A DNA stretch of 39,244 bases from Bolinopsis microptera (taxonomy: Eukaryota > Ctenophora > Tentaculata > Lobata > Bolinopsidae): assembly GCF_026151205.1 (NCBI RefSeq), contig NC_087076.1:15177675-15216918 (forward strand). The letters are read 5' to 3'. The position numbers and the translations under genes are program-made. The notes under the pieces were generated by a model. That model saw only the letters and a program-made list of their open reading frames with translations, was not told the origin of the DNA and ran no database searches. Numbering within the stretch: position 1 is the first letter of the stretch; each line of letters opens with the position of its first letter. Shown piece after piece: positions 24,701 to 35,651 of this stretch.

Positions 24701-27700
24701 CAACCCGTTAAACATGCGACTGCGCAGGGAGGCGAAGGGCCGCTGGTTGTGGTGGTGGTTAGTAACTGCCGTGATAAGCGCCACGTCATCTCCTGCAGCT
24801 ATAGCTGCTTGGAGCGTTTTTATCTGGTCGTACTTTATCAAGAGGAACTCTTTAAGAGCGTCGTTACGTGACAGTTTGACCACGTCTATGTTGTTGATGT
24901 TCTTTATGTAGATGTCTGCTCCCCATTCTATTAGTAAACTTGACATTTGCCGGTCTAAAGCTTCAACCTAAGAACGAGAAACTTGATTAACTATAATATG
25001 TTCGGTCGACTCAGCCGAATGTTAGGAAACTTGATTGAGGGTTAAATGAGGAGGGGTACCTGCTAAAAGATGGAGAATCTTACAAGAATACCCCTTCAGT
25101 AAATCTACATCGTAGTGTACTATAAACATAGTACTATTAACTATCTATATGTCATTAGAGTGGCTAAATGGCAATAATATCTGGACAGTTCACCAAGTGC
25201 CAATGAAAATTCTTTGACTAGATTGTCGAAACTGTACTCTTTGATCAAGTGGGAAGTCTTGGGAATCAACGAACTTGATTTTCAAATATAACGTCTGAGC
25301 TTATAAACATGAGTTTATAAGTTATTGACTGTTATTGTTTATTAGTAAATAGTGTTAAAAAAGCTATCTAACCGCTAAGAAAAGAGGTGTCTGCAGTATC
25401 TTGTTCTGCATGTTCACACCCGCACCTGATTCCAACAAAAACAGTGCTATCTTGAAGTGTGCTCCTTTCACCGCAAAATGCAGTGAACTGTTGCCTGGGG
25501 GAGGGTCCCAGTATCAGGTCAAATATTTCAAACAGGAAAAGTTTATCTCTTAACCATTATCAAATATCTAGGATTATTGGCACTATTTTGGATTAAATAC
25601 TCCAGCCTGCCAGACAGGTAACGAGGGGGCCCGTACTTCAGTTTCCTCTTCTCCGGAAGAAGATAAGAGTTATTAAAATTTGTGGTGGCTAATGTGGTGG
25701 CTAGGTAGATAATCAGGGTAACATGATATTTAGGGTTAGTTCAATACAGCCCTTCAGATCAAATACCGGATTTGATTAGTAGGTGTTTATTAGGAGGGCA
25801 TGTCACTACATGTTATGTATGACGTTATCTTACAAATCAGTTACGAAATTACCATTCAGAGCCTATCCAGTGGAGACAAAGTGTTACTGCTAAGTAACTA
25901 AGTTAGAACAAAATGTTTGATTTGGATCATTCTATTTGGTGGATACGACCCAGGGCCCACAGTCACAAACAAATTGGCGCCTGAACTTTGAGATACTCTT
26001 TGCATAGGCACATTTTAGGCAAATAAAACTTGGTCATGTCACCAGCAGAAACATTACTGATTACAACAAAATATCAAATGTAAATGCTAAAAGTACATTT
26101 GGAATGACCATCTGGTAAAATGGCCAAAAATTTATTTAAAAAGGTGAGCTAGAAATTAAGGATCCAACATTTCTGGCACACCCTTTTTAGTAGCCCCACC
26201 ATTTGCCAAATAAAATAACATACCAGTATCACGATAAGTAGCGTTCACGAAGGAAGGATCACACTTGTAGAAACGAATGAGTTTCTCGACAGTGTCCAAC
26301 TCTCCACTTTTAACTGCTTTGAAGAGGGCTCTCTCGCACTGGGTGGGTGATCCTGGAAATACCTGGAAATAGTTCAAATGTTAGCACCATTATCAAATCC
26401 TGTGTGGTTTGATGAAGAAGAAAACAAATTCTGGATTAGTTAACAATCTTATTTATTTTCACGAGACTGAGCTCTATAGTCGCCATTAGCCATTTAAAAA
26501 TCATGACATAATATATTGTTATGAAATATAACGGTCGAAATTGAATCATTACATTTTGTGTTACCTGTAGCGGTTTTTATTTTCAGTTTATTATAACATT
26601 CGTGAATCTCTTACTTTGTATTCATTGTCGTGGCATATATTTTTCTTGTCCAAATGTTAGGGCAACACTTTTTAGTTTGCATATTATGATTAATTCTTTA
26701 AATAACTAACTTGATGAATGTTCTGATTTTAGAATCTACAAAACAAACCCTGACCTCTGTTACAATTAAAATGACATGATTTTATCTTCAAGGATCTCCA
26801 AGAATTATGCTGCAATGTAAAGACTGCATACGCTTTGTTCAAGGGATGCTGACGGTTATTTCTCTTGGTCTGAGCGCTTACGCCTATAAATCCTACGACA
26901 TCCGTGCATATTATAAGTACCAAGTTGCAGAATTTCGGGATCGGGAGGGTTTCTATGACAGCCGTGCAGTTTATGCGTCAGAAAATGCAAGTTTTCAGGA
27001 GGGTTTCATTACGATTCAGTTTCTTGTAAGCGTAATTCAAGTTGGTTTGTTGTTGTGGACAATTAAGAGGTTCTGCGACAGGTACTGCTAGCCACTGTTA
27101 GTGCTTTAGTTGTTCATGACTCTCACTTCAAATGAAAACTAAAACATTTAAATGTCAATGTATTGAGAATTTTCTAAACATTTGTCGTTCAAATTAATTC
27201 AATTATGATTCACCTTTAGTCACGTTATACAGTATTCTAAAACGAGTATTATACTCAATTTGTATCTAAAAGTTGATTTAAATTGATGGGAGAGGAGAGG
27301 ACTCATACCTTGTTAATGACCATTATTCCGACTCAGAATGAAAAATAAGTCAACTTCCTTATCTCACTGTACAATTTTATACCGATCTATAAAGATAATG
27401 GACGAACTCGGCTTTATCTAATGACCCTTTAAATGTCTCTTACTTTTTATAGAATAACCTTGTCTACTCATTGAGTACTAATTACACAGAATACTGTCTC
27501 TTAAAACTGTTTATTTTTGTCTAACGTTATTTCCTTTGGATAACTTAAGGGATGCACCGTCAACATGAAGATGCTGCATTGAATAAGTAGTCCTCTGAGA
27601 AGGATCAACCGCAGATAAACCCCTTTTGAGACCTACAACTTGCAGAGTGCAGGATTCTCCTTGGGGACCCTCTTTATAAGCTCAAATACCAAGAAAATAC

Positions 27701-28989
27701 TTCCACCAAGGAAGTTATCGGTCCAACAATTATTCCGTTCAAGAGGAGCTCCCTTTGGATTGATCTCATTATATAATACTCGTTTTTCACTGGGTATCTG
27801 GCCATATGCCGTTAGACAGGGCTTCCAGCATATTGTGGCAATAAGGAATTCCGAGTATAAATCAACTGGGTAGGTTGTAATTTACAAAAATCTCTTTTAT
27901 TCATTTGATATGATTAACGAAATCGACCAATATATCGCATTTGCAGCTGAAGCAGCAGATTCCAGACAACGTAACAAATATCCCGCACATAGCAATAGTG
28001 TATACTATACACAGTATAGACTATAGCTGTTAAGTAGATGCGGTAGCAAAATGCGGTCTAGTGGTTACTTCTCAGCATTGAAGTATAGTGGAGTTAAACA
28101 GTTCAATGATCAATATGCATATTTTGTTTTATTGCAGCTATCGCGGCGTTGCTATCGCATCTTAAAATAACTAACAGACTTTAAGTTATTAAGTTATTTT
28201 AAAATTTTTACATCCGTAAGACGTTTGAACATTAGCAGTCTCATTCCACATAAGCAACCTCGACCGTCAGAGCCCAACTATTATACAACAATCCTAAAAC
28301 AATCTAACAACAATATTACAACGTATAAAATTTTACAATAATCTTACCTGGTACAGAAGCTTGGATCCTGCTTTGAGAAGTTTGTTTCTGGACGGACTCT
28401 CGTAGTAGATTATAAATTTGTCCTCGTACTGGTCACTCTTAACCTGGAAATGGAAAAGTACTGGTCACTCTTAACCTGGAAATGGAAAAGTACTGGTCAC
28501 TCTTAACCTAGAAATAGAAAGGTACTGGTCACTCTTAACCTGGAAATAGAAAATAAACTTTTGAGAATAATAAACAACAAAGAGCTGAAAAAGTGGAGTC
28601 CTTTTTAATAAATTGAAACAATAGATTTTGAATCTGATGCGGAGGTGAGGCATATTTTTTACATGTGACAGTTATTCTGAGGTTTGATTGGTCACGTGTC
28701 AAAAAATATGCCTCACCCTCACCAGAATCCACATCACATATCCAATATCCATCTATTAACAACATGATAATGTGGTCGAACACAAAACCTACCTCACAAT
28801 CTCCGTCGAACACAAAACCTACCTCCACAATCTCCCGTGAAGGAATATTAAGAAGCTGTCTCACTGACTGGCTACAGTTCTCAGCTCCGGAGAAGTCGTC
28901 GAAGAACTCTTTCTTTTTAAGATCATACAGGATTAACTTCCGTTCTGGTGACACAACCTCTTTGCAGTTGCTTGTGTAGAATGCGACAC
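21725..28989 (-). CDS. Ankyrin-repeat protein, at least 11 exons
   Basis: Minus-strand gene; exons in transcript order: 28989-28823 (or 28793), 28443-28348, 26362-26224, 25494-25373, 24967-24636, 23876-23702, 23378-23285, 23120-22997, 22675-22501, 22291-22046, 21922-21725 (stop TGA 21725-21727). Every junction has GT..AG and phases 0/0/1/0/2/0/1/2/0/0 fit throughout, giving at least 620 residues. The N-terminal 100 residues (ERKLILYDLKKKEFFDDF, then YEDKFIIYYESPSRNK) match no domain I recognise. Ankyrin repeats follow: SSLHFAVKGAHFKIALFLLE, GLTLVHVAAKFGAIPVLELL, GKTALHYV, GNTPLHTLC, LLPVHCCAIQG, PQPLHYASKD and GETPLFSAVKSN. The last 66 residues are charged and non-repeat, ending in a Ser/Thr/Arg-rich tail. 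No signal peptide is seen, so an intracellular scaffold is likely. The 5' end is not settled. Confidence 0.8.
26450..26705 (+). promoter_or_regulatory. Conserved 5' flank of small gene A (paralogous to 29320-29650)
   Basis: Shares long stretches with 29320-29650, including CGCCATTAGCCATTTAAAAA, GAATCATTACATTTTGTGTT, ATAACATTCGTGAAT, and CACTTTTTAGTTTGCATATT. The similarity stops shortly before each ATG while the proteins have diverged, so the shared part may hold promoter or first-exon sequence. The copy at B carries an extra insert near 29390-29445. Confidence 0.55.
26807..27091 (+). CDS. Small membrane protein A (94 aa), antisense within ankyrin intron
   Basis: Single open frame from ATG 26807: two hydrophobic segments, residues about 14-30 (LTVISLGLSAYAY) and 68-88 (ITIQFLVSVIQVGLLLWTI), with a Tyr/Arg-rich loop between (YYKYQVAEFRDREGFYDSR) and a basic tail KRFCDRYC. 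It lies in the ankyrin intron 26363-28347 on the other strand. Its 5' flank (26450-26705) is closely similar to the flank of small gene B (29320-29650). No known family recognised. A second in-frame ATG at 26846 (start MLTVIS) is also possible. Confidence 0.5.
   Translation: MLQCKDCIRFVQGMLTVISLGLSAYAYKSYDIRAYYKYQVAEFRDREGFYDSRAVYASENASFQEGFITIQFLVSVIQVGLLLWTIKRFCDRYC
27092..28347. other. Ankyrin intron remainder
   Basis: No convincing gene. A plus-strand frame of 77 codons at 27640-27873 shows no pattern. A loose inverted pair GATGCGGTAGCAA / TTGCTATCGCATC lies at about 28035 and 28148. Confidence 0.4.
28348..28545 (-). repeat. Fourfold 32-bp tandem repeat containing splice acceptors
   Basis: A 32-bp unit (plus-strand AACCTGGAAATGGAAAAGTA, CTGGTCACTCTT) is repeated from about 28430 to 28545. 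On the minus strand each unit supplies an acceptor (TTTCCAG or TTTCTAG) and the first bases of the exon, at 28443, 28475, 28507 and 28539. Since 32 is not a multiple of 3, only the acceptor nearest the exon body (28443) keeps the frame without an in-frame stop. Confidence 0.8.
28793..28822 (-). repeat. Duplicated splice donor, 30 bp apart
   Basis: Two copies of GAG then GTAGGTTTTGTGTTCGA end the exon 28989-28823: donors begin at 28822 and 28792 on the minus strand. The offset of 30 bp is 10 codons, so using the second adds 10 residues in frame (ending GDCE). Confidence 0.7.
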
Positions 28990-29319
28990 CTGTAGTAGTG
29001 TTGTAGATTAATATGCATGAGTTGTAAGAGTTGGTGTTTGAGTAGTTGTGTGGGGCCTAGTAGTTGTGTAGTTTGTGGCGCAAGTTTATTCTTAAATAGT
29101 TTACTTGCCATGTATACATTTTTTACACATTCTGTAGTTCCTTCGCAAAGTTGCATAAATTGATTTGGTCATAATTAGCCGGAAAGATTTATTCATTTTC
29201 ACGAGACTGAGCTAGGGGTGGGCAAGAAAATGCAAATTGTCCAAAATTTTAAACGGCCCTGTTTTTAGGTAAAGTGACCTCCAAAATGCTAAAATGAAAA
29301 AATAACTTGGTTTAGGGTA

Positions 29320-29650
29320 AAAAAGACTATACTCGCCATTAGCCATTTAAAAAACATGACATAATAGTTATATTGTTATGAATATTAGGACGCAATGAAA
29401 CAACCGGATCACGATGCATGGGAACTTGCCAACCCATGGCAACATTAAAATATAACATTATAATATAACGAAATTGAATCATTACATTTTGTGTTACCTG
29501 TAGCGTTTTGTATTTTTAGCTTAAATATTATAACATTCGTGAATTTTAATCTTTTTACGTTGTATTTATTGTCGTGGCATCAATTTTTCTTGTTCAAATG
29601 CTAGGGTAACACTTTTTAGTTTGCATATTATGATTAATTCTTATAGGATT
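29320..29650 (+). promoter_or_regulatory. Conserved 5' flank of small gene B
   Basis: Partner of 26450-26705, same orientation and similar distance to the ATG (about 130-140 bp from the end of similarity). A piece with TTCACGAGACTGAGCT also matches, at 29196 and 26459, but is separated from the rest here by about 115 bp of extra sequence. Confidence 0.55.
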
Positions 29651-29781
29651 TACTTTCATTCAATCATACTGATTATATTTCATTTATTGAACGATTCTTT
29701 TTATTTTTAAGTGAAAAATTACGATTTTATTCACATTAATTTGTTACCTAAGGTAGAAGACGTGTGACATTTCATACACCG

Positions 29782-29988
29782 ATGGATATAAAGACAAAGG
29801 TATCTTTAGGGCTTCTGGTGATAATGGTATTCACCTACTGGATCTGTTATAATCATGGAACTGAGGAGGAGAAGCAAATATCAGTGGAGCAGCATTTCAT
29901 GAACCTTCTGTCTTTTGCATTCAATGCAGTTAAAGCATTATGGCGACTTTTTACTCAACTTTGCCGTCTATCTAGTGACATTGAATAA
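29782..29988 (+). CDS. Small membrane protein B (68 aa)
   Basis: ATG at 29782 (the open frame runs 18 nt further upstream without a better start). N-terminal hydrophobic segment VSLGLLVIMVFTYWICY, then NHGTEEEKQISVEQHFMN, then a second weaker hydrophobic/aromatic stretch (LSFAFNAVKALWRLF). It resembles small protein C in order and motif: TM segment, short polar link, EEK-x-IS-x-x-QH-x-x-N, hydrophobic end. The 5' flank is shared with gene A. It lies on the plus strand, upstream of the first firm exon of the minus-strand ankyrin gene and inside a possible long first intron. Confidence 0.55.
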   Translation: MDIKTKVSLGLLVIMVFTYWICYNHGTEEEKQISVEQHFMNLLSFAFNAVKALWRLFTQLCRLSSDIE

Positions 29989-30336
29989 CGGTGACATGTA
30001 ACCATGTATTTACTTCTGCACTACAGTTTCTCGCTAGATGTAGTTATCATTTTTTATGTAATCTTTGTATTTCGAAGCATTTGAAAACTGATTTGTGTAC
30101 GATAAACTCTCCTGAATTTTCTGATTATAATCGATTGAAAACAATCAAATAGTAATTGATACAATTTTGTATCTTGCTATTATGAGTTAAGTGTATAGTG
30201 TATACCGAATGTGCCAACTGCCAGGCACAAAACCCCAAAACCCCAAAAGGGACCGAAGATTTTGCTTGTAATGCAAACTAGTTCTACTTTCATGGAACTA
30301 AGGAGGATAATTATCAACCTTAATAATCTCAAGAAA

Positions 30337-30684
<348 letters not shown>

Positions 30685-31399
30685 GTTGAAATTTCCGAAC
30701 GGTTATACAAAAAAACGGTAAGAGTTACGGGACTGGTTTTGCCGACAAAACTCTGACGAAGCCAATAAGCAAATTTTATAAAAATCGGCCGGTGGTAAGT
30801 GGTTTAATTGATGGTTTTGTACCACAAATGTTACATAAAATGGCTTGAGCAGAACGGCAAGAGTTACGGGGCTAGCTCTCTCTCTTGTTGTCGTATATAT
30901 TACATGGTCATGTAATACTATAAACTTATTAGGGGAGGAAGAGCTCAAACGGTCTGTTTGGACTGTAGAGAGATTTCATACTTTCATACGACAATGTAAT
31001 GCATGTTCACAAATATGATAGGCGGGTGTGGTGCATGGTGTTAAGGGTTAATTTCTATTGATTATTGTTTAAGATACTATCTTTTAAGGATACTATTGGA
31101 TACGTGAGGGCACTCTGAATAGAATTGCTCGCCTTATCCGGGTTTTGAGTTTTGACTCAGCGGGTAATTGCTCCTACCCTTTTTAACTGCGGCAGTGAAA
31201 TCCCGGTCGAAGGCCAGGTTACACTAGTATATCATACAAGCGACATTGGATGAATTTACTGTCTGTGGTCCAGGCACTCTTTTGACTCACTAACTCGAGA
31301 ATCAAACCTTTTACCTTTAATTATTGCATGAATTTAAGAATTTTCAGGAATTATGATTATTACCTTCTATTTTTACGTTGCATTGGATTCTATGCAGTG

Positions 31400-31680
31400 A
31401 CACCCAAGTCCCAACCATGTACGAACAACTTAATTATACCTTCTCGTTAGATGCACTTATGATACTTCATATGTTCACTTTTAGTGATTCAATAATATTT
31501 CAAACATCTGAAAACTGATTCATATAATTATCTTAAAATCTGCTGAATGTTTCGAGTTTCTTGTTTAATTTGTTTGATAACACCTCATACTCATAGTAAT
31601 AAGTATTTCATCTTGATATTATAATGGTTCTAATAGTGTATGATATACGTATCAGGTACAAAACTGTGCATGGAAGAAAA
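31400..31680 (+). pseudogene. Degraded copy of the small gene B 3' flank
   Basis: Matches 29990-30215 in order: ACCATGTA, TCTCG(C/T)TAGATG, CAT(C/T)TGAAAACTGATT, then a CAGG(C/T)ACAAAAC block. It lies in the loop of the inverted-repeat element. The coding part is not recognisable. Confidence 0.4.
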
Positions 31681-31764
31681 GCAATTGTGAGAGACAAGTA
31701 TATGACATAGTTTAGTTAAAAATATAATTCGTCTGCAGCATAGTTTGAAGAAATGTACAGTTCG

Positions 31765-31845
31765 TCATGACTTGCACCTACAGTCTTTGCACCTACAGTC
31801 TTTGCACCTACAGTTGCAGTCTTTGTAGCTACAGTCTTTCAAGAT
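31765..31845. repeat. Short tandem repeat, 16-bp unit
   Basis: Four to five copies of TTGCACCTACAGTC with variants (TTGTAGCTACAGTC at the end). Confidence 0.8.
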
Positions 31846-32608
31846 TCTGGCTGCTTTCACGATAAAGAACACGTTGTTTCTTAGGCACCTAAACACTATG
31901 CACATATAAAATGATATTTATATTTCATTATAATTATCTATATAACTATTGTAACCCGGCTTTCGGCCGGGATTTCACTGCCGCAGTTAAAAAGAGTAGG
32001 AGTATTTACCCGCTGAGTCAAAACCCGCATTAAGTGAGCAATTTTATTCGAAGTGCCGTCACGTATCCAATAGTATCTTAAACAATAGTATCTTAAACGA
32101 TAATTAATAGAAAGTAACCCTTATTAACTCCGCACCACACCCGCATACTTGAAAACATGCATTACATTGTCGTATGAAAGTATGAACTCTCTCTCTACAG
32201 TCCAAACAGACCGCTATGAGCGATCCCTCCCCTAATAAGTTTATAGTATTCATGACAGTGTAATTATGATATATATACCAATGCTACATAATATGCAGTA
32301 ATGAGAGAGAGAGCGAGCTCCGTAACTCTTACCGTTTTCTTGTTAAGCTGCTCAAGCCATTTTATGTAAAATTTGTGGTACAAAACCATCAATTAAACCA
32401 CTTACCACCGACCGATTCAAAAAACCTTTACCATTTGGCTTTGTCAGAGTTTTTTCGGCACTATACCGAAAAAACCAGTCCCATAACTCTAACCATTTTC
32501 TTGATTAAGCCGCTCGGAAATTACACACGCACGCACACACAGACAGACAGAAAACACACATTCTGAGATTATTGTTTAAGATATATAGACACAGGACACC
32601 AAACTTAC

Positions 32609-32719
32609 CCAGCTGAGTACAGGGACTGTTACACTGATAGTTATAGCACGTGTCGGACAAGAGTGGGATTGATATAGTTCTCGAGAGAGTTCCAACAGAG
32701 TTCCATCAGAGTTTAGGAT
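32609..32719 (-). CDS. Candidate upstream exon of the ankyrin gene
   Basis: Minus-strand stretch of exactly 111 nt between an acceptor TTCCTCTAG and a donor GTAAGT, open in one frame for 37 residues: ILNSDGTLLELSRELYQSHS and then TISVTVPVLSW. The composition is protein-like. It is phase 0-0, whereas the next known exon (28989) needs one base left over, so a further small exon between 29000 and 32600 would be required. Another reading is that it belongs to a different minus-strand gene. Confidence 0.35.
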
Positions 32720-33289
32720 CTAGAGGAAGAGGGACTTCAACTAAACTTGACCTCAAAGGTACTGAGACTGGTCCGTTATTTAACCCGTACGTGAGCTCTG
32801 AGGGCTTCGGGGTGTAGTGAAATTAAAAGGCTTTAGCCAGAGATTTTGCCCACCACGTACGACCTCTCTTCTCGCGATCACATACATCCTTACCCTTACT
32901 GATACTTTAATTGAATTATTGGGCGACACTGCGAAGGCCATAAATTTATTGCAATACACAGTCGAATGAGATGAACCTTTCAGAGTCATTCGTTACTCAT
33001 ATTTCGTGTACTTCTGCTTGTACATTGTACGTACATTGATAGGCACGGCATTTATCTAGTATGCACATTATTGCAATTTTCCAGAATTTTGTTTTGTTAA
33101 TTAAACATTTATTATATCATTAAATTAAACCCTGACTCGCAAAGTATATTTTAGTGCGGCCTGTCCTAGAATTTGTAGAATTTGATCATTTGTTTTATCT
33201 CATCATGATACCATCTACCATTTATCATTCGAGTCATAAGATTCAAATTTTAGCAAGAAAGCAGAAGGGAGCCAGAAACCCAGCACACG

Positions 33290-33469
33290 ATGGCACTGCT
33301 GGATACAGGTGTTAAGATGCTGTTTTCTGCTATAATCCTCACCACAATAATCTTCGTTTACATTGGCTACCACACGACTAGAACTGCGGAGGAGAAGACG
33401 ATCTCATCGGATCAGCACATGATCAACTTCTTCCTGGTGCTTTTAGGTGCACTTCAGGCATTCGGGTGA
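33290..33469 (+). CDS. Small membrane protein C (59 aa)
   Basis: ATG at 33290 opens 59 codons to TGA 33467-33469, too short for most ORF filters. MALLDTGVKML leads into a hydrophobic segment (FSAIILTTIIFVYIGY), then HTTRTAEEKTISSDQHMIN and a hydrophobic end FFLVLLGALQAFG. The AEEKTIS-x-DQHMIN block aligns with EEEKQIS-x-EQHFMN of small protein B, which argues for real homology and for this frame being coding. The spacing between the two hydrophobic parts is the same in both. Function unknown. Confidence 0.55.
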   Translation: MALLDTGVKMLFSAIILTTIIFVYIGYHTTRTAEEKTISSDQHMINFFLVLLGALQAFG

Positions 33470-33742
33470 ATCGAAACCTGTTCATCAGTTCGGAATTCGA
33501 CTGGAATAAGTAGATCTGACATTTGCAGTGGTACAGAGATGAGACAATGAGACATAATGGAATAAGACATAATGGGATGAGATCATTGTTGTTTATATCA
33601 TGAATTTCAACTATCTTGACTAGATCTCCGGCATTATAAACCATACATTATTCAGCTTTAAACACATAATTAATATTATGATTAGTTCTGTATTCTACAC
33701 AGTAGGACCCTCAACTCGTCCACAGTAGGTGTGTAGTGTACA

Positions 33743-33830
33743 CAGTGGCGTAACGAAGGGCCTCGCTGACCCCGCCGTGGGTGCACCATTTGAGGGGGGC
33801 GGGGCGCCAACAGGCAACGTTACGCCACTG
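33743..33830. mobile_element. Very short hAT-type MITE (88 bp)
   Basis: Ends CAGTGGCGTAAC and GTTACGCCACTG are the same as in the element at 19418-19775. Flanks AGTGTACA (33735-33742) and AATGTACA (33831-33838) differ at one position, fitting an aged 8-bp target duplication. The interior keeps GGGGCGCC. It is an internally deleted relative of the 358-bp copy. Confidence 0.8.
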
Positions 33831-33867
33831 AATGTACACTCCACTTTCTAAACTTAGAATAACTCAG

Positions 33868-34545
33868 TCCACACTTTTCTCACGGAGACCCTCTTGATAA
33901 CGGCGACACGTGTGTAATAGAAAGCTACAAATTATCTAACAAGATGATTACAAATTATAAAGGTTGTAAGTCTGAAACTTAGCACGGGGTAGTTAATTAA
34001 AAGCAGCTGGAACTGATTAAAAATTGCAGATTGGAGTTAATGGCCGTATCTGGGTTTTAAAAGATGGCAGTTTGTTTTTTTGTTTTTTTAGATGCAACCT
34101 GCCAAAACCCATGGTCCGTGGTGTGAGAGGAGTCCCAACTTTGCCACTCGTCAAGCTCTGTCACTGCAGAAGGCCAGCAGTCACCACTTATCGAGGTGAC
34201 AGCCCTTAGTGACAGACACGAAGATAAGAGACGAGAGTCACCTCCCACGTGGACCACACGGCTTTTGGCATGTGCCGAAGCAACAAAATAGATAAGATGT
34301 AGCAATTAAAATTGTAGGGAGTCTTCTCTAAGCTAATGAAAGCACTTTTCCTCACGGACACACTACTGTTTACGACGACACGTGGGTCATAGAGAGCTAC
34401 AAATTATCTAAAGAGATGTTTACGTCACAGAGCAAATTATAAAGGTCGTAAGTCTGAAATTGAGCACGGGGGTAATTAAAGGCAGCTGAAACTTGTTAAA
34501 AACAAATTGCAGACTGGGGTTAATGGCAGTTGCGTCTATTTTAAA
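33868..34545. repeat. Tandem duplication upstream of the GPCR gene (two copies, 472 bp apart)
   Basis: About 190 bp at 33868-34060 is repeated at 34343-34545: shared GCTACAAATTATCTAA, AAATTATAAAGGT, GTAAGTCTGAAA, AGCACGGGG, and AAATTGCAGA. The second copy ends about 100 bp before the GPCR start codon. The spacer 34060-34340 has a minus-strand open frame (LDEWQSWDSSHTTDHGFW) that could be an exon of another gene but has only a weak donor. Confidence 0.7.
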
Positions 34546-34647
34546 ACTTGGTGGTAATTTACTGGTAATTAACAGACATATAAATTGCACCTATCTGCTT
34601 AAAGCACGCTCAGTTCTTGAAGTTTTAATCGTAACCAGTTTGAAAAA

Positions 34648-35651
34648 ATGGCAGTTTTCAGTGATGGCGGTGTCAGCTCGCCTGACATTTACATCGCAGT
34701 ATCCTGTATCTGTGTTATCATTGTATGTACAGTCCTCAACTCCCTAGTCTTCGTTCACAACTTCAGAAGAAGAGCTCCGTGGCAAGAAACCTGTACCTCT
34801 TTCTATCTGCCGCAGATCTTCTGACATCGTGGGTGTTACTGGGGGCCAACTCGGTGGACTTTCTAAAAGAAAAGGAGGAGGAGTGCAGAACTAGCGACGA
34901 GGTGACTTGCAATGAAAGATATTTCTGGAAAGAAGTTGAAGCTACTCTTGGAATGAAACTTTTAACAGTCATCGGTTTGACCATGTCTCTTGCACCGGCT
35001 CACATCACAGCATTTCTGGCTGTGACACGTTTCCTCCAGATCAGATACCCTCTCAATCCATTACAGCTGAAACACGTGATAACATCACTTCTCGTGACAT
35101 GTACCTGGGTTCCAGTGGTTGTTAGCTTCTTTATGTTTGATGTGAGTGACAGAGAGGGTTGCAATCCACCCGCTAAAAGCAACTTACTTGCGTTCGCGTG
35201 GACTTACTGTCCGCGGGTGCTGGGAATTGATATGAATATCTTCCAATACTTCTGGTTCATGATTGCCATTCCTGTAATTTTACAGATTGGAGCCATGATT
35301 GCATCAATTCTTACAATCACTGAGCTGGTTAAGGTTTATCTTAACCCAGTTTCAGAAGGTACAGCAAAGAAACATAACAGGATAAGAAGTTGTTCGAAGA
35401 TATTGTTGACCAATTTGGGTAGCTTGATTCTTGTTACTATATCCGTGATAACAACATTTCAAGGTGAATCGAATGCGGATGAAGTTTCTGTAGGGGATGG
35501 TATAACTTATCTGATGTTCCAAACAGTTCTTCCTTCTCTTATCTCCACACTGAATCCCATTATCTACATGCTTCTTACCCCAAACTTTAAACTCAAATCA
35601 AAAATATCTGTTGCAGGCATCTCTACTACTACTGGAACAGTCAACAGATAG
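34648..35651 (+). pseudogene. Rhodopsin-like GPCR with a frameshift between TM1 and TM2
   Basis: Frame 1 from ATG 34648 encodes a short N-terminus and TM1 (IYIAVSCICVIIVCTVLNSL, Asn of TM1 present) to about 34755. The frame then shifts, in or near AGAAGAAGAGC (34760-34775), and TM2 (LYLFLSAADLLTSW, with the conserved Asp), TM3 ending TRFLQIRYPL, TM4 (with Trp), TM5 (with Pro), TM6 and TM7 (STLNPIIYMLL) follow open to TAG at 35649. The DRY motif is TRF, TM6 lacks the CWxP centre, and NPxxY is kept. Family: class A GPCR, ligand unknown. The coding sequence is intronless and otherwise intact, so a recent one-base loss, a 2-base gain, or a sequencing error in the purine run is likely. Confidence 0.8.

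Follow-up and report, generated by a model that had tools for sequence, protein, structure and literature searches.

The stretch of DNA analysed here (the window) comprises 39,244 nucleotides of the ctenophore Bolinopsis microptera, C5:15177675-15216918 in a host genome of 264,652,675 bases in 232 contigs; window coordinates above 39244 denote downstream positions on the same contig. Three tiny plus-strand open reading frames (ORFs) of 59-94 amino acids (aa), here termed A, B and C, had been called in it by a first-pass annotation, and all three are present where it had placed them. Together with relatives found near them they are best read, as we hold with moderate confidence from sequence comparison, as a young tandem cluster of orphan genes for predicted two-segment small membrane proteins, all on the plus strand and subject to birth-and-death evolution. 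Along the chromosome the order is A-B-E', C, F-D-E. The ORFs and the flank that they share are:

26807-27091, plus strand: ORF A, 94 aa (after a basic residue, two hydrophobic segments separated by a polar loop of 39 aa; C-terminus basic)
29782 (ATG) to 29988 (stop), plus strand: ORF B, 68 aa, with the motif IS-x-x-QH-x-x-N
29989-30230, plus strand: 3' flank of B, 92-94% identical with D, more distant from E and E'
30280-31285, plus strand: E', a broken copy in two pieces (about 30280-30316 and about 31229-31285) with an in-frame stop upstream
33290-33469, plus strand: ORF C, 59 aa, with IS-x-x-QH-x-x-N
42978-43172 (C5:15220652-15220843), plus strand: F, 64 aa, 1.25 kb upstream of D
44425-44664 (C5:15222099-15222338), plus strand: D, 79 aa, intact, 5.2 kb beyond the window end

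Judged by their alignments, B, C and D and the broken copies E and E' are homologous. BLASTP of the single pair B-C gives E=3e-7, and the aligned region reaches from the last part of hydrophobic segment 1 across the polar link into the beginning of the second stretch. For C-B, C-D and B-D none of 5000 shuffles, in which the composition was kept within each segment, reaches the observed score, so that the earlier claim of a motif likeness between B and C beyond chance is upheld. The motif itself had been given as EEK-x-IS-x-x-QH-x-x-N; its part IS-x-x-QH-x-x-N is found in B, C, D and the broken E, but the EEK is not common to them, as D has EKAN. The traits of the family, displayed by B, C, D and the E fragment, are segment 1, a polar link with IS-x-x-QH-x-x-N and a second hydrophobic stretch that is short and ends near Q-A/V-F. 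Its C-terminus, however, sets B apart: the same glutamine is followed by two or three last residues in C, D, E and E', while B runs further. Since these four stop at the same place, the idea that the small ORFs are exons of a longer split protein is not supported. A non-coding first exon upstream of the small ORFs is possible, as acceptor-like sites are present.

A genome search with B leads to D, at 51% identity over query residues 5-61, a stretch that crosses the stop of D. C is matched weakly genome-wide by D (E 0.08) and by B (E 0.43); as a query it finds only itself at E<=0.001, and no other genomic copy of the 501 bases around it was found. A B/C/D profile built without E was run on 4108 frame segments from 179 kb, where it hit E at 45031-45117 (E=1.9e-6) and, sixth in rank, E' at 31199-31282 (E=0.12). 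E has an in-frame stop just upstream; that of E' is a different one, and in E' a (GT)n array and one arm of an inverted repeat (30651-31232) also separate the two pieces. Between the 3' flanks of D and E' the identity is 61% (E=4e-15), and a 3'-flank profile that was built from B, D, E and E' recovers, by construction, all four. The (GT)n array is long (30340-30680), and the inverted repeat (30651-31232 and 31940-32560, arms 78% identical) flanks the second piece of E'.

A has a relative of its own in F, and the alignment of both hydrophobic segments, with a longer loop in A, indicates that the two are homologous. The summed score is reached by none of 2000 shuffles in both directions; as a one-piece local alignment the match is weaker (23 of 5000 shuffles). 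To correct for a pair that had been picked by eye, every ATG ORF of 45-120 aa that has two hydrophobic stretches was collected from 179 kb, which gave 47 ORFs and 1081 pairs (B failed the two-stretch cut and was left out). A-F is fourth by score among the 1081. Two SLSL low-complexity ORFs were then dropped and each of the 136 pairs above a score cut of 44 was shuffled 200 times. By z value A-F is third (6.0), after G-H (13.1; both described below) and D-C (8.7) and before two ankyrin exons (5.7), H-C (4.7) and the others (at most 3.8). A genome search with F finds only F itself, and with a profile of A+F no ORF apart from these two comes below E=1. An origin of A and F within the recent B-D duplication is rejected, as there is no DNA match at E<=1e-5 between window 26000-34700 and the F stretch. 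A minisatellite-like repeat lies directly upstream of F, at about 42600-42978.

As a plain member of the B/C/D family A finds no support by protein sequence: of 5000 shuffles of A, 2973 score at least as high as the real sequence against B, 4902 against C and 3714 against D (hhalign probability 0.2, P 0.26); a membership via F is possible. Between the groups the observed score is reached by 42 (C-F), 106 (D-F), 906 (B-F), 319 (B-A), 763 (C-A) and 163 (D-A) of 1000 shuffles, and hhalign of B/C/D gives P 0.023 against F and P 0.06 against A+F on 20 columns. From these comparisons it is possible that A/F and B/C/D form one superfamily. The first-pass annotation, which had joined A, B and C in one undescribed family, was right for B and C, to which the intact D and two decayed copies are now added, and is partly supported for A, which has no detectable protein match to them. 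It had seen too little of the cluster, as D, E, E' and F also exist, and too much unity in it by including A as a member.

The connection of A to B and D lies upstream of the ORFs, in a block common to these three:

26474-26731, plus strand: block ahead of A, with its core at 26625 (182 bp from the ATG)
29327-29677, plus strand: block ahead of B, with its core at 29569 (213 bp from the ATG)

Before D the core lies 202 bp from the ATG. That A shares its flank with B had been recognized earlier and is confirmed, with 79.6% identity between 26510-26731 and 29449-29677 and 89% between 26474-26525 and 29327-29382. The match ends at about 26731, ahead of the ATG of A; past that point the DNA of A is unlike that of B, and for the 569 bases from 26732 no other genomic copy was found. 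Three copies of the block segment before B were found in 264.65 Mb, namely before A, B and D, with 80-86% identity among them, and a 32-base core with at most 3 mismatches gave three genome matches (reversed control 0), counts which are lower bounds. With three copies found, a dispersed repeat is rejected. A profile from these copies revealed no further clear one in 179 kb, and C, E and F are without the block. A therefore joins two groups, its coding sequence being related to F and its upstream block to B and D.

It could be argued that the block (as enhancer, promoter or RNA) is the functional unit and that the small ORFs downstream are passengers. It is well kept in three copies though the sequence downstream in A is unlike that in B, and of 20,000 random sites 14% have an ATG ORF of at least 59 aa in the next 250 bp downstream. 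We consider this improbable, however, because C, F and E have no block and still carry homologous ORFs, and no Rfam family was found in the window.

The products of A-D and F are probably membrane proteins with the N-terminus inside, as predicted from their hydrophobic segments and charges. A lysine or arginine adjoins segment 1 in all five (KK in D), and the polar link has a net charge of -1 to -3 in each of them. The C-terminal charge is +2 in A and F, whose products are possibly hairpins in the membrane. The second hydrophobic stretch of C has 13 residues and might not span the membrane.

How far these ORFs are coding was assessed by comparing their protein likeness with neutral simulations of equal base changes and by nonsynonymous (dN) and synonymous (dS) divergence. 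The likeness of C-D is above that of the simulation, which reaches it in 1 and 4 of 800 cases in the two directions; for C-B these are 18 and 27 of 800. For A-F it is 0 of 1000 both ways, a value biased upwards since the register was chosen by protein match. Differences by codon position are 16/12/32 for A-F and 22/15/31 for C-D, the latter only at p=0.06, with p=0.40 for C-B. C against D and B gives dN 0.58-0.67 and dS 1.06-1.71 by NG86, while the maximum-likelihood (ML) values are saturated. Purifying selection on the protein is supported by these comparisons for C-D, C-B and A-F, and not for B-D. The first-pass annotation had itself named dN/dS near 1 and stops in copies as signs against a working family. 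They are present in B-D and in E/E', but not in C-D or A-F.

Several observations weigh against the reading as a cluster of coding genes. Neither the length nor the hydrophobicity of the ORFs is unusual: 179 kb contain 104 plus-strand ATG ORFs of at least 59 aa, and the fraction of 251 ORFs that are at least as hydrophobic is 0.11 for A, 0.27 for B, 0.08 for C and 0.12 for D. The fraction of 233 null ORFs that score at least as high in codon usage is 0.30 (A), 0.10 (B), 0.08 (C) and 0.29 (D), so that by this measure B and C resemble coding sequence only mildly, and A and D give no indication either way. The residues ahead of segment 1 sum to a net +1 for A, B and F, to 0 for C and to -3 for D, by which the topology varies within the set. 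C is followed within 700 nucleotides by two AATAAA or ATTAAA motifs, the four others A, B, D and E by none. BLASTP of the single A-F pair gives no match and tblastn of it only E 1.3-2.8; in the output of the B/C/D profile F is only 16th (E=1.8) and A is absent, to appear 24th (E=5.4) once E and F are added. E and E' are two decayed copies. Finally, B-D has dN 0.30 and dS 0.29 (NG86) without a codon-position signal, and its protein likeness equals that of the neutral simulation (527 and 407 of 1500). As far as these comparisons go, this pair evolves neutrally and faster than its flanks.

The pair B-D bears on two other explanations. Sites that differ amount to 36/147 in the core, 31/226 in the 5' flank and 21/278 in the 3' stretch, which starts at 29962 and so takes in the last nine codons of B. 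The family could consist of relics, once coding, of which most copies including B now drift, and only C and D (perhaps A and F) or none still work. The excess of differences in the B-D core over both flanks would fit, as would its dN/dS of about 1, the loss of the shared protein end in B, and the stops or insertion carried by E and E'. Yet the frames of A, B, C, D and F remain open and the likeness of C-D and A-F is above the neutral simulation, and we regard relics as a possible but rather unlikely explanation. The other explanation is diversifying selection as in arms-race genes, with conserved flanks in B and D and a core, mostly segment 1, that diverges 2-3 times faster. The core differs from the 3' flank with p=4e-6 and from the 5' flank with p=0.009 (Fisher), and YN00 and ML put dN (0.33 and 0.32) over dS (0.23). 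NG86 and LWL85 (0.28/0.30), however, find dN equal to dS, and a single pair is concerned. Since dN and dS rise together by NG86, gene conversion of the flanks or a mosaic copy explains B-D at least as well as positive selection, which we think has little probability.

In the tandem cluster that we favour, the block before A, B and D would serve as a promoter or leader that gives them shared expression. Each product would insert with its N-terminus inside, directed by the basic residue before segment 1, and would expose the short, net acidic polar link outside, while its second part would form either a second segment or an amphipathic tail. Many known microproteins pack as partners against larger membrane proteins or complexes. 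It is a tentative guess by analogy that the products of this cluster might likewise be accessory or regulatory partners of that kind.

On the opposite strand lies an ankyrin gene, in which or in whose 5' intron A, B and C had been proposed to be nested antisense:

26156-28989, minus strand: presumed 5' exons of the ankyrin gene by splice-site reading, with an intron of about 2 kb (about 26363-28347) that contains A

The exon ending at 28348 is followed by a consensus donor, and the possible exon starts at 26362 and 26352 each have an acceptor in front of them; because of these sites on either side A is placed within the intron of about 2 kb. The nesting holds for A, but B and C lie upstream of the last placeable exon (about 28989), beyond which no opposite-strand exon could be placed. 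The gene should extend further upstream by at least one exon, as the one near 28989 opens with an acceptor. Ankyrin models match five of nine scanned minus-strand stretches (E<=0.01), three of them above the curated cut-off, and all these matches are at 22.0-25.0 or 25.4-25.5 kb. Pfam gave no match for either of the two exons that flank the intron with A; we infer from their order and their splice sites that they belong to the ankyrin gene.

Outside the window lies a second family of small two-segment proteins, whose N-terminus is rich in cysteine and which shows signs of purifying selection:

C5:15235649-15235885: G
C5:15236886-15237140: H
C5:15372315-15372569: I

H and I have 9 differences in 255 bases (dN 0.015, dS 0.11 by NG86), and the first 39 codons of G and H give dN 0.16 and dS 0.82 by the same method. 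H resembles C (the z of 4.7 given above; 6 of 1000 shuffles) and is at chance against A, F, D and B (520, 907, 412 and 554 of 1000 shuffles). hhalign gives nothing useful (P 0.42 against B/C/D, P 0.04 against A on 16 columns). One could imagine that a single 200-bp upstream cassette moved among A, B and D as neighbours in a local array, and that one superfamily, diverging quickly via cell-surface recognition or conflict, comprises A/F, B/C/D/E and possibly G/H/I, but we deem this very unlikely.

Downstream of C a receptor-like gene is located at 34648-35651 on the plus strand. A frame resembling a membrane segment comes first; the long frame behind it is offset, and the space between them is too small for an intron, which may be read as a frame break, an assembly error or a pseudogene; the long frame has no Pfam match at E<=0.01. 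A direct repeat of about 200 bp, 76% identical, is found at 33872-34067 and 34343-34551.

Searches for relatives were extended to several collections. Pfam scans of A, B, C, D, F, G and H gave no family above the cut-off. The best candidate for A, MARVEL (PF01284), was rejected with 14.4 bits and E=0.04, below the family cut-off of 32.8 bits; the MARVEL domain has four segments, whereas A has two. PHROGs with A, B and C returned nothing convincing (best E=0.079), and the best match in PDB was E=0.097 for the B/C/D profile, with none for A at E<=10. In prokaryote genomes the B/C/D profile gave 85 pattern matches, and in viral contigs there were 240 for this profile and 4 for A, none of which was confirmed as a relative. 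None of four weak matches in the host genome (L026, L028, L029 and L030; E 1.0-4.3) shows ISxxQH within its alignment, which in two cases ends before that point, and two of the four contain stops. As confident matches are confined to one locus, a transposon is not supported. With no relative elsewhere in this genome or in the collections searched, we infer that the cluster is lineage-restricted. A literature search over titles and the beginnings of abstracts found no paper on such a cluster, which does not prove its absence from print.

If the ORFs are translated, this stretch of 18 kb would be a compact case of microprotein birth and death, with intact, diverging and broken copies and with old as well as young pairs. 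It would then be a test case for the origin and regulation of small membrane proteins in an animal genome, and would justify annotating ORFs of less than 100 aa in this one. As it stands, the cluster is an annotation lead.

By its sequence this is a credible undescribed gene cluster, but the kind of thing is already familiar. PMC9681215 describes Sloth1 and Sloth2 (SMIM4 and C12orf73) of Drosophila as neighbouring, distantly related paralogous microproteins. The present cluster is like them in that neighbouring paralogous microproteins, there of 60-80 aa, carry a hydrophobic segment; according to the same paper the Sloth pair is bicistronic and conserved across animals, and its products are mitochondrial with a single segment. 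The ORFs described here, in contrast, are separate and lie hundreds to thousands of bp apart, have mostly two segments and are without relative in the collections searched.

Tandem families of orphan, that is taxonomically restricted, genes occur in animals. Local duplication, decayed copies, small size and the failure to find an outside homologue are common to these families and to the present cluster. It is unlike them in that an upstream block is common to three members, one of which, A, has a protein without detectable likeness to the other two.

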